From NCBI GenBank assembly GCA_000993275.1, contig LBVV01000016.1:1-39338 (forward strand): 39,338 bases of DNA, given 5' to 3'. This document shows, piece by piece, positions 15,499 through 23,273 of this stretch. The notes beneath the pieces are model-generated. The model searched no databases. It was not told where the DNA came from and saw only the letters and a program-made list of their open reading frames with translations. Made by a program: the position numbers and the translations under genes. Origin of the DNA: a candidate division CPR2 bacterium GW2011_GWC2_39_10 (lineage in GTDB: Bacteria > Patescibacteriota > CPR2). Every line of letters begins with the position of its first letter. The stretch's first letter is position 1.

Positions 15499-16629
15499 TT
15501 AAGATTCTTTTTTTGTATCTTCAGATACTTTGGTTTTTTTAAAAACAAACACGCCACCAGTTGCTAGTCCAAGCAGAATTACAGCAAAAGATCCAAGAAT
15601 GATAGGTGATTTATAGAATGGTTTATTTACCGTTTGGACCACATTAGTTTCTTTAGCCACAATTGAAAATTTTATTGAATCAGTTTTTTCAACAAATTTA
15701 TTATTCTGGGAGGCATCAATAACTGTCAACTCCAGTGAATGCGCGCCTATCCCCAAATCTTTGGTTAATTCATATGACCAATCTCCGTTTTTATCTGAAT
15801 AGGTTTCTGCCTCAAAAGGGTCTGAATGAAATATTAATATAACTTTTTTTGATGGATAGGTTTTTCCCCTAAAAACGATTTTTTCGCCCTGTTTTATTGT
15901 CTGCGTTAAATCTTTATCACCTTCATATTCCTTGTTCCCAAATTTAATTCCCAATATTTTCGTAGTGATGATTTTTTCAGGTGTCGGCGTTGGGGTGAGG
16001 GTTGGAGTGGGAGTAGGCTTTGGAGTGGGAGCGATAGAATGATTACCAGTATTTGTATTTGATACTGGAACTGAAGGCGTTGAAGTTGGTCTTGGAGTAA
16101 AAGTTACATAACTAGATGTGCCTTGACAAGCATCACCTTCAACTAATTTCCATGTGTTAGTATTGCCATAATCATATTGCCAAACTCCTAACTTGAAGGT
16201 AAGATTTTTTCTTTCAGCTACCGTGGATTTAATATAAATATAGTCATAGATTTCACTACCATAATCATTATATTGTCCACTAGTTTCTTCCCTTAAAAAA
16301 TATGCTTTGGCTTGTGTCGTAGAAATTGTATTACCGAAACCTGATGCAGTCATAATGACATAGTTGGATTCCGGTGGTGATCCATAAGAGGATAAAGTTG
16401 TGCCGTTTATAGAATTTTTATCAGGCATTTTACCGCCAATATGATAAGTAAATTTCATCTGTAATCTTATTGTATCCGACCCATTGGCAACTGCGGTTGA
16501 TTTATCCGCATAAATATGACAACCCGTTTCATTATTGGGCAAAGATATAAGCTGATCCGCCCTTGCTATTTGAGGACTGAAAAACATTCCAAATATAAAT
16601 AATATTGTTAATACTACTTTTCTCATCAT
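15499..16629 (-). CDS. Secreted, membrane-anchored surface protein with a Pro/Thr stalk
   Basis: 376 residues. A signal peptide (~1-24, VVLTILFIFGMFFSP...ARA) is followed by a ~150-residue beta-rich domain with two Cys. Then come a low-complexity Thr-Pro linker (~180-218, PTPKPTPTPTLTPTPTP), an Ig-like region (GKTYPSKKVILIFHSDPF...WSYELTKDLGIGAHSLELTVID), and a C-terminal membrane helix (~345-365) with a short basic tail. The architecture is that of a cell-envelope adhesin or structural protein; no specific family is recognised. AGGAG precedes two consecutive ATGs. It is the last minus-strand gene before the opposite-strand micro-ORF region. Confidence 0.8.
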   Translation of the reverse strand: MMRKVVLTILFIFGMFFSPQIARADQLISLPNNETGCHIYADKSTAVANGSDTIRLQMKFTYHIGGKMPDKNSINGTTLSSYGSPPESNYVIMTASGFGNTISTTQAKAYFLREETSGQYNDYGSEIYDYIYIKSTVAERKNLTFKLGVWQYDYGNTNTWKLVEGDACQGTSSYVTFTPRPTSTPSVPVSNTNTGNHSIAPTPKPTPTPTLTPTPTPEKIITTKILGIKFGNKEYEGDKDLTQTIKQGEKIVFRGKTYPSKKVILIFHSDPFEAETYSDKNGDWSYELTKDLGIGAHSLELTVIDASQNNKFVEKTDSIKFSIVAKETNVVQTVNKPFYKSPIILGSFAVILLGLATGGVFVFKKTKVSEDTKKES

Positions 16630-16702
16630 TCTTTCTCCTATTTATTTTTGTTTCTACATTAATAATAAAGGGAAAATGATTTTAGCAAAAGACTTAATTT
16701 CG

Positions 16703-16772
16703 CGTCATCCTAAATTTACCTGCCCATTCGAAGCATAGCAAAGGAGGATTTCAGGATCTCAGAGCAGGACCC
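16703..16772. repeat. REP-like dispersed repeat
   Basis: CGCGTCATCCTAAATTTACC...GATTTCAGGATCTCAGAGC followed by a TCTCAG/CTGAGA hairpin. It resembles the common GTCATCCT...TTTCAGGATC interspersed repeats. Confidence 0.5.
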
Positions 16773-16827
16773 TGAGACGAGGCAGACGAACTAAAAAGTA
16801 TGGCTTAACAAGAAGCCAGGAATTTTC

Positions 16828-16856
16828 TTGACGATTAATCAAGCATTTGCTATGAT
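16828..16856 (+). promoter_or_regulatory. Promoter of micro-ORF transcription unit 1
   Basis: TTGACG (16828-16833), exact 17-bp spacer, TATGAT (16851-16856) on the plus strand, opposite to all nearby genes. Predicted start near 16863. Confidence 0.75.
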
Positions 16857-16962
16857 CACCGTAACGAATACGAAAAAATCAGCACATTAAAAATCAACAC
16901 CTCGAATCATTATGCATATCAAAATAAATTGTGGCATTCGGATAAAAAAGGAGGGTTGTCGT

Positions 16963-17082
16963 ATGGGCATTTTGTACATCCTGCCAGCTGTTTATAAAAA
17001 TATTGCGGGATACAAAACCGTACCGTTCTTGCAAAACAGACAGCACAATTTTAAGACGAAAGCAGTCATCAAGGAGACATAA
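16963..17082 (+). CDS. 39-residue micro-protein, unit 1
   Basis: The ATG follows AAAGGAGGG at a normal distance, one of the best ribosome sites in the window. The product begins MGILYILPAVYKNIAGYK, hydrophobic then basic, and ends KTKAVIKET; no Cys and no recognised family. It lies about 100 nt into a transcript with its own promoter and a structured, terminator-like 3' end. It could be a real micro-protein, a toxin-like peptide, or a leader peptide that reports ribosome progress to the structure at 17153-17269. Conservation data would decide. Confidence 0.5.
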   Translation: MGILYILPAVYKNIAGYKTVPFLQNRQHNFKTKAVIKET

Positions 17083-17152
17083 ACCAATATTATTTCTGAC
17101 TTAAAGCGCAGAAATCAAACATCAGGTATCATAATCGAGGACTTTGTCTTTT

Positions 17153-17269
17153 GGGGGGGTCTATGCAGCAAAAATTGCAGCAACTTCGTTGCAGTAATTG
17201 CTAAACAATAAATATTTGCGAAAAAAACAACACCAAAGCAAATATCAAAACCAAGACCCCCTCTTTTTT
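17153..17269 (+). ncRNA. Three-way-junction RNA ending in an intrinsic terminator
   Basis: A closing stem GGGGGTCT (17155-17162) with AGACCCCC (17254-17261) encloses two further stems. One is AGCAA...GCAAC-TTC-GTTGC...TTGCT (17167-17202); the other is ATATTTGC/GCAAATAT (17212-17219 with 17238-17245). TCTTTTTT follows the closing stem. A 13-codon ORF (17163-17204, MQQKLQQLRCSNC) coincides with the first inner stem, so its translation would unfold the structure. Either a terminator-coupled regulatory RNA or a stable small RNA. Confidence 0.55.
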
Positions 17270-17274
17270 ATTAC

Positions 17275-17395
17275 AAAAAAGTTATTGCTCACAACCCTGC
17301 GTCTTTGCGAGTGAAACGAAGCAATCTCCTCTGCTTGAAACAAGATTGCCGCACTCTCCGGCGGCTGCCGGATCGTTCGCAAAAAAAAGTTATTG
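17275..17395. mobile_element. REP/MITE-like element with 13-bp flanking duplications
   Basis: AAAAAAGTTATTG occurs at 17275-17287 and again at 17383-17395. Between them, 17288-17382 holds an inverted-repeat unit that begins CTCACAACCCTGC, has TTTGCGAG...GAAGCAATCTC in one arm and AAGATTGCCGC...GTTCGCAAA in the other, and carries a CCGGC/GCCGG core. The direct repeats look like a target-site duplication. CTCACAACCCTGC also starts a short related piece at 39126. Confidence 0.6.
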
Positions 17396-17421
17396 ACAAA
17401 GGAGTAAAAAAGTAGTATCCT
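17393..17421 (+). promoter_or_regulatory. Promoter of micro-ORF transcription unit 2
   Basis: Perfect TTGACA (17393-17398), 17-bp spacer, TATCCT (17416-17421). Its -35 overlaps the right-hand 13-bp duplication. Predicted start near 17428. Confidence 0.8.
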
Positions 17422-17494
17422 GTTACGCAACAGTCGCTAGATAGATACTTGACTACTATAACTCGAAAACCAATATGAGCGGAGCGTGAATATT

Positions 17495-17638
17495 ATGCTT
17501 CGACCAGTAAATTACTTTATGCGTATATTCTATTGGATAATACTGCTTATTGTTTTTGCAACAGAAGATGCGCGGGCATCAAGCACCTATTCCGAGGCAG
17601 ATGACAGCGCTATAGAGCCAGATGTAGGATTTATCTGA
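17495..17638 (+). CDS. 47-residue signal-peptide-like micro-protein, unit 2
   Basis: Starts with an ATG ten bases after GGAG. The product has a short basic start (MLRPVNYFMR), a hydrophobic core (IFYWIILLIVFA) and a plausible signal-peptidase site after ARA. The remainder is an acidic 19-residue tail beginning SSTYSEADDS. This layout fits a secreted or membrane-held peptide. No family recognised. A 4-codon ORF overlaps its upstream region (ATGAGCGGAGCGTGA). It is the first ORF of unit 2. Confidence 0.5.
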   Translation: MLRPVNYFMRIFYWIILLIVFATEDARASSTYSEADDSAIEPDVGFI

Positions 17639-17681
17639 TAAACCACTGCAACCCTATACAACCGTTAAGGAGGTGAGCAAG

Positions 17682-17756
17682 ATGAAGTCCAGAGCTCCAA
17701 CGATGTTCTTAGGCAACAAAACGTCGATCCCCCTTATTAGAAGAAGAACAGCGTAG
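17682..17756 (+). CDS. 24-residue basic micro-ORF, unit 2
   Basis: Preceded by AAGGAGGTGA five bases before the ATG, a near-perfect anti-Shine-Dalgarno match. The product begins MKSRAPTMFLGNKTS and ends RRRTA. No family recognised. The strength of the ribosome site is the main argument for translation. Confidence 0.4.
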   Translation: MKSRAPTMFLGNKTSIPLIRRRTA

Positions 17757-17808
17757 CGCGCCGGCGCGCCGAGCAGGCGTAATGATCTCGAGAGAGAGGT
17801 CTGGAGGA

Positions 17809-17883
17809 ATGAAAAAGCGAAGACGTTGGCGCTTAGTCATGCCATTATATTACGTACAAAGTGCATGGTTAAGCGCGTATTGA
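17809..17883 (+). CDS. 24-residue basic micro-ORF, unit 2
   Basis: Begins MKKRRRWRLVMPLYYV, strongly basic then aromatic. GGAGG lies too close to the ATG for ideal use; GAGAGG further upstream fits better. It overlaps an AAGCG/CGCTT hairpin, so it could be incidental to RNA structure. Confidence 0.3.
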   Translation: MKKRRRWRLVMPLYYVQSAWLSAY

Positions 17884-17938
17884 TTTACGGTTATCGCTTG
17901 TAAAATCGGCCCTATACCGAAAGAAGGTGAGTCGATAT

Positions 17939-18001
17939 ATGATTGTATCCACCCACGCAAGAAAACTAATAATGATTCATCATGCTCCCGCCGGCGCATA
18001 G
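17939..18001 (+). CDS. 20-residue micro-ORF, unit 2
   Basis: AGAAGGTGA precedes the ATG at a suitable distance. The product begins MIVSTHARKLIMIHH. Its end overlaps a GGCGC/GCGCC hairpin. Weak candidate on its own. Confidence 0.3.
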   Translation: MIVSTHARKLIMIHHAPAGA

Positions 18002-18171
18002 GCCAGATAGCGCCTCCGCCACCGGTGAACAGGAGAATTTGTAAGAAGAATGCTGAGAAGAAAAAAATAATCCGATTATGTTTGTTTTGAGTAGCGAAAA
18101 AAAATAATCCAATTGCTCCCAGATGTTCGGCAACCTCATACGAGGCCCCTATTATGCGAGCAAAAAGGGCG

Positions 18172-18205
18172 GGATCCTGAATAAGAAATTCAGGATCCTT
18201 TTTTT
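18172..18205 (+). terminator. Terminator of unit 2
   Basis: GGATCCTGAAT (18172-18182) pairs perfectly with ATTCAGGATCC (18188-18198) around AAGAA, followed by seven T. The T-run overlaps the mnmA stop codon, so the two transcripts converge. Confidence 0.93.
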
Positions 18206-19223
18206 ATGCAATAATTCCCCCGCCTAAAACCTTATCGCCATCATAAAAAACAATGGATTGTCCGGGAGTAACAGCTCGAACCGGTTTATCAAATTTAAAA
18301 TATACCTTGTCACCATCAATTTTTCCTTTTCCTGAAATTTCTGCCATATTGTAACGGATTTTGGCTTTTGCCTTAAAACTTTCTTTAGTTTCAGAAAGCC
18401 AATTTAGATTTCCGGCCTCAACTTCGCCTTTTTCCAGATCTTTTTCATCACCAACCGTAATCGAATTTTTGGCCACGTCTATTTTTATAACATACTTCGG
18501 TTCTCCCCCCGCAACATCTATTCCCCTTCTTTGACCAATCGTATAAAAAGGCAAGCCTTTATGCGCACCAATTTCTTTACCGTGAATATCCAAAATTAGT
18601 CCAGGCATAATCCGAACTTTATCCAAGTGCTTTTTTAAAAAAGATGGATAATCATTATCCGGAATAAAACAAATTTCTTGAGATTCCGGCTTTTTGGCCA
18701 CAACTAAATTTTCCTTTACAGCGATAGACCTTACTTCATCTTTTGTTAAATTTCCAACCGGAAACATAATTTTAGACAAATTCTCTTTCTTGATACCGTA
18801 CAAAAAGTATGACTGATCTTTTCTCTCGTCTTTTCCTTTAAATAAATTTCCGCCTGAAATTCTTGCATAATGACCGGTCGCCAGATAGTCGGCTTCAAAA
18901 TTATCAATTTGCTGCAATAAATAACCAAACTTTATTGTCTTGTTGCATTTGACGCACGGGTTGGGCGTATGACCGTTTTCATACTCTTTTACAAAATCCT
19001 TAATTACTTCTTCTTCAAATTCTTTTGAAAGGTTAATTTTGTGATGTTCGACACCAATTTGATCAGCCACCTTTCTTGCTTCTTCAACTGTGCCGTTATT
19101 GCACTCCTCAAGCGTAAAAAGGCGCATTGTAATACCAACCACGTCATGTCCGTCTTTTTTTAGTAAAAAAGCTGCCACGGACGAATCTACTCCTCCGGAC
19201 ATTGCCACAATTACTTTAGCCAA
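18204..19223 (-). CDS. mnmA: tRNA-specific 2-thiouridylase MnmA
   Basis: 339 residues. PP-loop ATPase motif SGGVDS (9-14), catalytic cysteines Cys90 (TPNPCVKCN) and Cys185 (SQEICFIP), ATGHYAR and the PFYTIGQRRG motif are all present. It thiolates U34 of Lys, Glu and Gln tRNAs with sulfur from a cysteine desulfurase; iscS lies 4 kb away in the same direction. Its start overlaps the DHH gene by eight bases, so the two are cotranscribed. Its stop overlaps the T-run of the opposite-strand terminator. Confidence 0.97.
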   Translation of the reverse strand: MAKVIVAMSGGVDSSVAAFLLKKDGHDVVGITMRLFTLEECNNGTVEEARKVADQIGVEHHKINLSKEFEEEVIKDFVKEYENGHTPNPCVKCNKTIKFGYLLQQIDNFEADYLATGHYARISGGNLFKGKDERKDQSYFLYGIKKENLSKIMFPVGNLTKDEVRSIAVKENLVVAKKPESQEICFIPDNDYPSFLKKHLDKVRIMPGLILDIHGKEIGAHKGLPFYTIGQRRGIDVAGGEPKYVIKIDVAKNSITVGDEKDLEKGEVEAGNLNWLSETKESFKAKAKIRYNMAEISGKGKIDGDKVYFKFDKPVRAVTPGQSIVFYDGDKVLGGGIIA

Positions 19224-20845: not shown

Positions 20846-21805
20846 TTATTCGGTAAATTCCTGGGAAAACATTTTACCATAAGGACCGGCATCTATGCAG
20901 CCAATTCCCACCTTACCAAAATTAGGATCTAAAATATTTGCCTTATGACCTTCGCTATTCATTAGCCCTTCATGTGCCAAATCGACAGTGGGTGCCAAAG
21001 CCAAGTTTTCTCCGGCATATTCATAGTTTATACCGGCTGTCTCCATCCGGTCAAATGGATCTTTGTTCTCCGGATTTATATGCGCAAAATAACCCTTTGC
21101 AAGCATGTCCCTAGAATGCGCCCTAGCCAAAAACCTTAAACTATTTTCCATCGAAAGCGGCTTAATCCCCCTTTTTGTCCTCTCCCCATTTACAAGTTTA
21201 AGCATTTCATCTTCTGAAGAAGCATCCACCGTAACAGCAGTAGTCTTAAAATTTAATTCTATTCTTTCATTCTCTTTTGGCTTTACCATAAAATATGCCA
21301 GCGAATCTTTAATTGCCCGACCAAAAAGTTTTTGAACATCCTGCTCGTAAACACTGGTTTGGGCCACGATACGGCTGGCAATTTTAGAATTTAAAACTTT
21401 CGACTTTATTAATCCTTGGACAGGCAAATAAGCAATTAAGGTTAAAGTTACCGCTATCAAAATGACGCCCTTGGCAAGAGAAGCAAAAATGCCGGTGATT
21501 CTATTTATTTTAGAATCAGTGATCTTTCGGTTGAATTTTTTATAGAAAAAATGAGCGCCAATCAGATAAATGGCGTCAAAAACTACCCAAATAATAAAAA
21601 ACGATAACAAATTAATGACTGATAGCGGCATTTTGGAAAAATATTTCGAAAGAACGGCGGCAAATGGCGGATACAAGGCAAAAGAAATTGCCAGTGAAAA
21701 AAAGAAACCAATAAGCTCTAGGGCAACTCTAATAAAACCGTAGTAATAACCAAGAGCCATATAGATAACCAGAACTATAAAGATGATGATGTCGACGATG
21801 TTCAT
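20846..21805 (-). CDS. CvpA-like membrane domain fused to a CAP/SCP domain
   Basis: 319 residues. Residues ~1-130 carry four membrane helices in CvpA style (DIIIFIVLVIYMALGYYYG, LSVINLLSFFIIWVVFDA, GVILIAVTLTLIAYLP). Residues ~195-319 are a CAP domain: LVNGERTKRGIKPL, ARAHSRDMLAKGYFAHI, YAGENLA, NSEGHKANILDPNFGKVGIGC, with the His-Glu-His pattern of the family. The CAP domain should lie outside the membrane. CvpA proteins are linked to envelope stress and biofilm, CAP domains to extracellular proteolysis or lipid binding. An AT-rich -10-like box lies very near the ATG, and no ribosome site is visible. Confidence 0.88.
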   Translation of the reverse strand: MNIVDIIIFIVLVIYMALGYYYGFIRVALELIGFFFSLAISFALYPPFAAVLSKYFSKMPLSVINLLSFFIIWVVFDAIYLIGAHFFYKKFNRKITDSKINRITGIFASLAKGVILIAVTLTLIAYLPVQGLIKSKVLNSKIASRIVAQTSVYEQDVQKLFGRAIKDSLAYFMVKPKENERIELNFKTTAVTVDASSEDEMLKLVNGERTKRGIKPLSMENSLRFLARAHSRDMLAKGYFAHINPENKDPFDRMETAGINYEYAGENLALAPTVDLAHEGLMNSEGHKANILDPNFGKVGIGCIDAGPYGKMFSQEFTE

Positions 21806-23075: not shown

Positions 23076-23273
23076 AAAATCTCCTTTTTGATTCAAAACA
23101 GATTTCTTTTCTAAAACCTGCCATTCTATACATAAAAATTTTTAATTTCTAATTGTCAATGAATTTTCAAATCATTAATTTTCAATTATTAAGTCGTGTT
23201 GTTTGAAGATTAAGTCATTATAAATTGACTGAAAATTGCAAAATTGGTAATTGAAAATTTATCTCTTTTTCGT

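Follow-up and report, generated by a model that had tools for sequence, protein, structure and literature searches.

A candidate lineage-specific micro-ORF transcription unit in a sequence-turnover hotspot beside mnmA of a CPR2 bacterium

The described systems that come closest to the locus studied here are orphan intergenic small ORFs, known as ismORFs or microproteins (PMC11188072) and collected in a small-protein catalogue (PMC11364881). Large ornate RNAs such as OLE, ROOL and GOLLD are also intergenic, extend over several hundred nucleotides and contain no long ORF (PMC12286853), and type I toxin-antitoxin loci combine a short hydrophobic peptide ORF with an mRNA that carries hairpins (reviewed in PMC6563280). 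Here we analyze a region of about 780 bases, hereafter unit 2, that adjoins the tRNA-modification gene mnmA in the 1.1 Mb genome of a candidate division CPR2 bacterium; the window, meaning the whole stretch of DNA considered, is 39,338 nucleotides long. We propose, with a probability of about 0.42, that unit 2 is a lineage-specific orphan micro-ORF transcription unit located in a turnover hotspot, most likely a young or fast-turning-over gene for a small peptide (an orphan smORF).

Unit 2 is flanked on one side by mnmA, which is encoded on the - strand, and on the other by a MITE copy, beyond which lies a gene for a secreted protein with Ig-like repeats. The original prediction, made from the DNA letters, had described a promoter and a perfect 11-bp terminator with seven T bracketing the region, a 14-bp palindrome and a 24-codon ORF preceded by AAGGAGGTGA, and we found all of these (Table 1). 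Because the T tract directly follows the stem on the + strand only, the terminator serves unit 2 more than mnmA, and a + strand terminator at this place, whereas the annotated flanking genes are all on the - strand, was counted as above chance. Both strands were searched, over 261 kb of the same genome, for promoters with at least 10/12 consensus matches that have a strong Shine-Dalgarno sequence (SD) and a start codon no more than 300 nt downstream. Such arrangements occur at nine places: units 1 and 2, the 16S rRNA leader, and six sites that lead into ORFs 156-440 codons long. A third candidate for a micro-ORF unit, at L165:16460, was rejected, as it is the 16S rRNA leader. The combination of signals at unit 2 thus exceeds chance, and since these signals identify real genes at other places in the genome, we regard unit 2 as a self-contained transcription unit on the + strand. 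From a housekeeping-type promoter, transcription would then run for about 775 nt, convergently to mnmA, and stop at the terminator at 18171-18205; ribosomes would bind the AAGGAGGTGA site at the least and translate the 24-codon ORF2, and the 47-codon secreted-type ORF1 would perhaps be translated too. From these signals we infer that unit 2 is expressed now or has been recently; its transcription, its translation and any function of a peptide are predicted properties.

Table 1. Features of unit 2, of its flanks and of the corresponding slot in the congener (window positions unless a contig is given).
Feature	Position	Strand	Details
Secreted Ig-like-repeat protein gene	15499-16629	-	Other border of the slot
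Unit 1	16828-17272	+	TTGACG-17-TATGAT; SD AAGGAGGG; 39-codon ORF 16963-17082
MITE copy	17281-17382	+	3'-truncated; abuts unit 2 promoter
Sigma-70-type promoter	17393-17421	+	TTGACA-17-TATCCT; 10/12 consensus matches
ORF1	17495-17638	+	47 codons; MLRPVNYFMRIFYWIILLIVFATEDARASSTYSEADDSAIEPDVGFI; alternative GTG start at 17486
Shine-Dalgarno sequence	17666-17676	+	TAAGGAGGTGA; its AAGGAGGTGA part is the complement of the own 16S tail GGATCACCTCCTT
ORF2	17682-17756	+	24 codons; MKSRAPTMFLGNKTSIPLIRRRTA; behind TAAGGAGGTGA
Palindrome	17756-17769		GCGCGCCGGCGCGC; 14 bp; direct reading
ORF3	17809-17883	+	MKKRRRWRLVMPLYYVQSAWLSAY; 24 codons; behind GGAGG; chance-level codon score
Strongest internal hairpin	17829-17876	+	Inside ORF3; 14 pairs (2 G-U); 20-nt loop; arms 17829-17842/17863-17876
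ORF4	17939-18001	+	20 codons; behind AAGGTGA; at chance
Intrinsic terminator	18171-18205	+	Perfect 11-pair stem 18172-18198; 5-nt loop; seven T at 18199-18205
mnmA	18204-19223	-	Convergent to unit 2; NF001138, 420 bits
Congener slot unit	L140:7386-6950	-	Promoter TTGACA-17-TATAAT, 12/12, at L140:7386

The coding content of unit 2 is less distinctive than its signals. As had been claimed, neither strand of the unit has an ORF of 60 codons; the longest measure 50 codons (GTG) or 47 codons (ATG) on the + strand and 57 on the - strand. The 47-residue ORF1 does resemble a signal peptide, with a basic N-terminus, a hydrophobic core, a polar tail and ARA/S, but its length is no more than chance would give (shuffle mean of 43.9 codons for the longest ATG ORF; fraction as long 0.35), and its SD, GGAGCG, is weak and predicted to be paired. 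The expected pair of weaker small ORFs turned out to be two or three, and ORF2 is the only member of the set with a strong SD. By codon score, ORF1 is intermediate between genes and random ORFs, while ORF2 and ORF3 are random-like, and the inability of length and codon usage to separate these ORFs from random sequence weighs against the orphan gene that we propose. With a single strong SD, a set of ORFs whose codon usage is at chance and no relatives, the suggested multi-peptide operon was not borne out. What the unit does have, outside annotated genes, is ORFs of fewer than about 70 codons with a promoter and an SD of their own.

In sliding windows across unit 2, no frame gave consistently gene-like codon usage, and on this ground a decayed long gene was rejected. 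The lack of such a trace counts against a second explanation, namely that unit 2 is a non-functional spacer or relic, left by a lost gene or a small insertion, which drifts with leftover promoter, SD and terminator and collects MITEs; so does the finding that promoter, exact SD and terminator are intact together. This explanation nevertheless agrees with ORFs and stems that are near chance, and we consider it a serious possibility that ranks closely behind the orphan transcription unit.

The shape of ORF1 and its paired SD could also be expected of a type I toxin-antitoxin-like locus, in which the hydrophobic peptide would be silenced by an antisense RNA starting from a promoter-like site on the - strand inside unit 2 (TTAACC-17-TATAAT, 17872-17844). 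This site, which is no more than promoter-like, lies downstream of ORF1 and over ORF2 and ORF3, so no antisense RNA gene overlapping ORF1 was found, and chance alone yields many promoter-like sites of this level (4.4 expected for all sites). ORF1 gave no match in Pfam, NCBIfam, PADLOC or PDB, and only a chance-level match in PHROG. We therefore hold a toxin-antitoxin locus to be very improbable, since significant PHROG, Pfam or PADLOC matches are missing as well.

A structured non-coding RNA, or an mRNA-like small RNA that works through its hairpins, is an unlikely alternative to the orphan unit, although folding lends it something. Free energies are slightly below those of shuffled sequences, 60-nt windows of rank 2-6 fall in the 3-7% tail of the shuffles, the GC content exceeds that of the genome, and of the many hairpins originally reported the 14-pair stem at 17829-17876 stands out, with a local z of -2.6 on the + strand and -4.7 on the - strand. 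Without the terminator the unit folds only slightly better than its shuffles and equally on both strands (z = -2.1 on + and -2.1 on -), which is neither strand-specific nor well beyond shuffled sequence. Perfect stems of at least 6 bp with loops of 3-10 numbered zero in unit 2 versus 0.5 expected. No Rfam family matched unit 2 at gathering or lax thresholds, covariance models for tmRNA and RNase P had no match in the interval (their matches sit elsewhere), no homologues were found from which covariation could be read, and the strong SDs favor translation. The large structured RNA that had been offered as the other possibility is thus not upheld, and neither a conserved peptide system nor a conserved large structured RNA is supported at unit 2. 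The same models recorded two RNase P RNA matches above the family cut-off in this small genome (G000:C12:3895-4289 and G000:C14:18307-18706; 197 and 108 bits), and no tmRNA match above the Rfam cut-off in the genome, which is an estimated 97% complete.

Unit 2 occurs as a single copy in its own genome. No significant match was obtained in 146 relatives or in 380 genomes sampled across the phylum, and none among phages, plasmids and E. coli genomes; a phage or plasmid origin was rejected for lack of a match. Scans of IMG/VR for ORF1 and two DNA motifs returned nothing, and unit 1, which ends in a GGGGGGGTCT...AGACCCCC stem ahead of a T run, likewise has no relatives. An mnmA query against genome contigs gave matches in distant phyla only. 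As judged by sequence comparison, unit 2 is known from one species only within the sets searched. This absence of relatives fits a drifting relic, and it deprives the orphan gene of a homologue with which selection could be assessed.

Two further properties are in keeping with a relic. The composition of unit 2 is mildly foreign, with a GC content of 0.44 versus a mean of 0.376 and a 4-mer distance at the 95th percentile, and the MITE abuts the promoter. The MITE copy in the window is flanked by a 13-bp direct repeat, AAAAAAGTTATTG, at 17275-17287 and 17383-17395, the right copy of which overlaps the -35 box. Intact copies elsewhere in the genome are bounded by terminal inverted repeats of 14 bp (GTAACTGCTCACAA...TTGTGAGCAGTTAC), and one copy shows an 8-9 bp target duplication; the family, with the core TTGCGAGTGAAACGAAGCAATCTC, occupies about ten further places in the sampled genome and is common to the congener. 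Unit 2 itself was rejected as a member of a repeat family, as it is single-copy and the matching repeats are the MITE. A second type of repeat, GTCATCCTGAA...-like, is found at 16697-16793.

To the only other genome of the genus (G001), most of the neighboring sequence, including some intergenic DNA, aligns at 83-93%, and the slot does not align at all, which favors an orphan unit in a place of rapid turnover. The two border genes align (mnmA at 86% identity, the other border gene at 93%), and homology ends at 18210 on the mnmA side and at about 16669-16689 on the side of the secreted-protein gene. Between these borders lie 1520 nt in the window versus 726 nt in the congener, with no detectable similarity; homology of units 1 and 2 to the 726-nt gap was rejected, as alignment scores are inside the shuffled range. 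Sequence between mnmA and the surface-protein gene is probably exchanged about as fast as species diverge, and MITEs have inserted close by. However, a 177-nt intergenic stretch at 23097-23273 has no alignable counterpart in the congener either, so that lost similarity by itself is no proof of replacement, and this counts against our proposal. Between rplS and the secreted-protein gene, the congener carries about 2.7 kb (L140:8862-11587) that includes a transposase-like ORF along with ORFs for small membrane proteins, versus fewer than 100 bases in the window.

The absence of the locus from all relatives, which had been named in advance as its refutation, is true of the sequence and untrue of the position. 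The slot of the congener holds a unit with a 12/12 promoter, a first SD at L140:7311 that belongs to a start-stop ORF (AAGGAGTGGTGTGT-ATG-TAA) and a second SD, AAGGAGG, at L140:7197, followed by a 7-codon ORF. No relative was found, and this unit shares orientation and a similar layout with unit 2 on unrelated DNA. A congener slot with intact signals argues for the orphan unit and against a mere relic. It could also mean that a functional micro-ORF RNA is maintained beside mnmA throughout this genus, its layout being selected and its sequence wholly turned over between species whose DNA on either side of the slot is 86-93% identical: an RNA with a promoter directed towards mnmA, at least two strong SDs with very short ORFs, and a terminator, acting as a ribosome-loading RNA or a peptide gene and conserved by position and anatomy only. 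We regard this version as improbable.

Small orphan genes beside mnmA are also seen at a wider scale. In other class members (L123-L128 and L131), a stereotyped strong promoter, in several with a leader containing TCCTTTCG, is followed downstream of mnmA and on the same strand by an SD of the GGAGGTGA type and a protein of 88-122 aa; these proteins are unrelated, have no Pfam family above the cut-off, and are apparently orphan genes in a fixed slot. By this pattern, a small orphan gene close to mnmA is nothing unusual for the class, in agreement with our reading of unit 2, and unit 2 was rejected as a remnant of these proteins for want of a meaningful match. Elsewhere in the window, at 20846-21805, a single protein fuses a CvpA-like membrane domain to a CAP (cysteine-rich secretory) domain.

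What commends an orphan micro-ORF gene is hence the company that its signals keep in the genome, an SD that matches the 16S tail, a terminator oriented for the + strand, and the behavior of the slot in congener and class. If unit 2 is expressed, a small, reduced genome has here an orphan locus that is transcribed and translation-competent, in a slot for which two congeners use unrelated units, and this would be a natural setting in which to study how small genes of bacteria arise and disappear. If it is not expressed, then good matches to promoter, SD and terminator can occur on drifting sequence.

Compared with the described systems, unit 2 departs from type I toxin-antitoxin loci in that the case for an antisense RNA gene opposite ORF1 is not convincing and in having no homologue (PMC6563280). 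OLE, ROOL and GOLLD each form a conserved family of defined structure, whereas unit 2 has neither Rfam match nor homologues and folds marginally (PMC12286853). From ismORFs it differs in that its ORF length is at chance and that, with no homologues found, conservation and selection are not demonstrable, but it resembles them in having intergenic ORFs of 15-70 codons that are restricted to a lineage and provided with their own expression signals (PMC11188072, PMC11364881).
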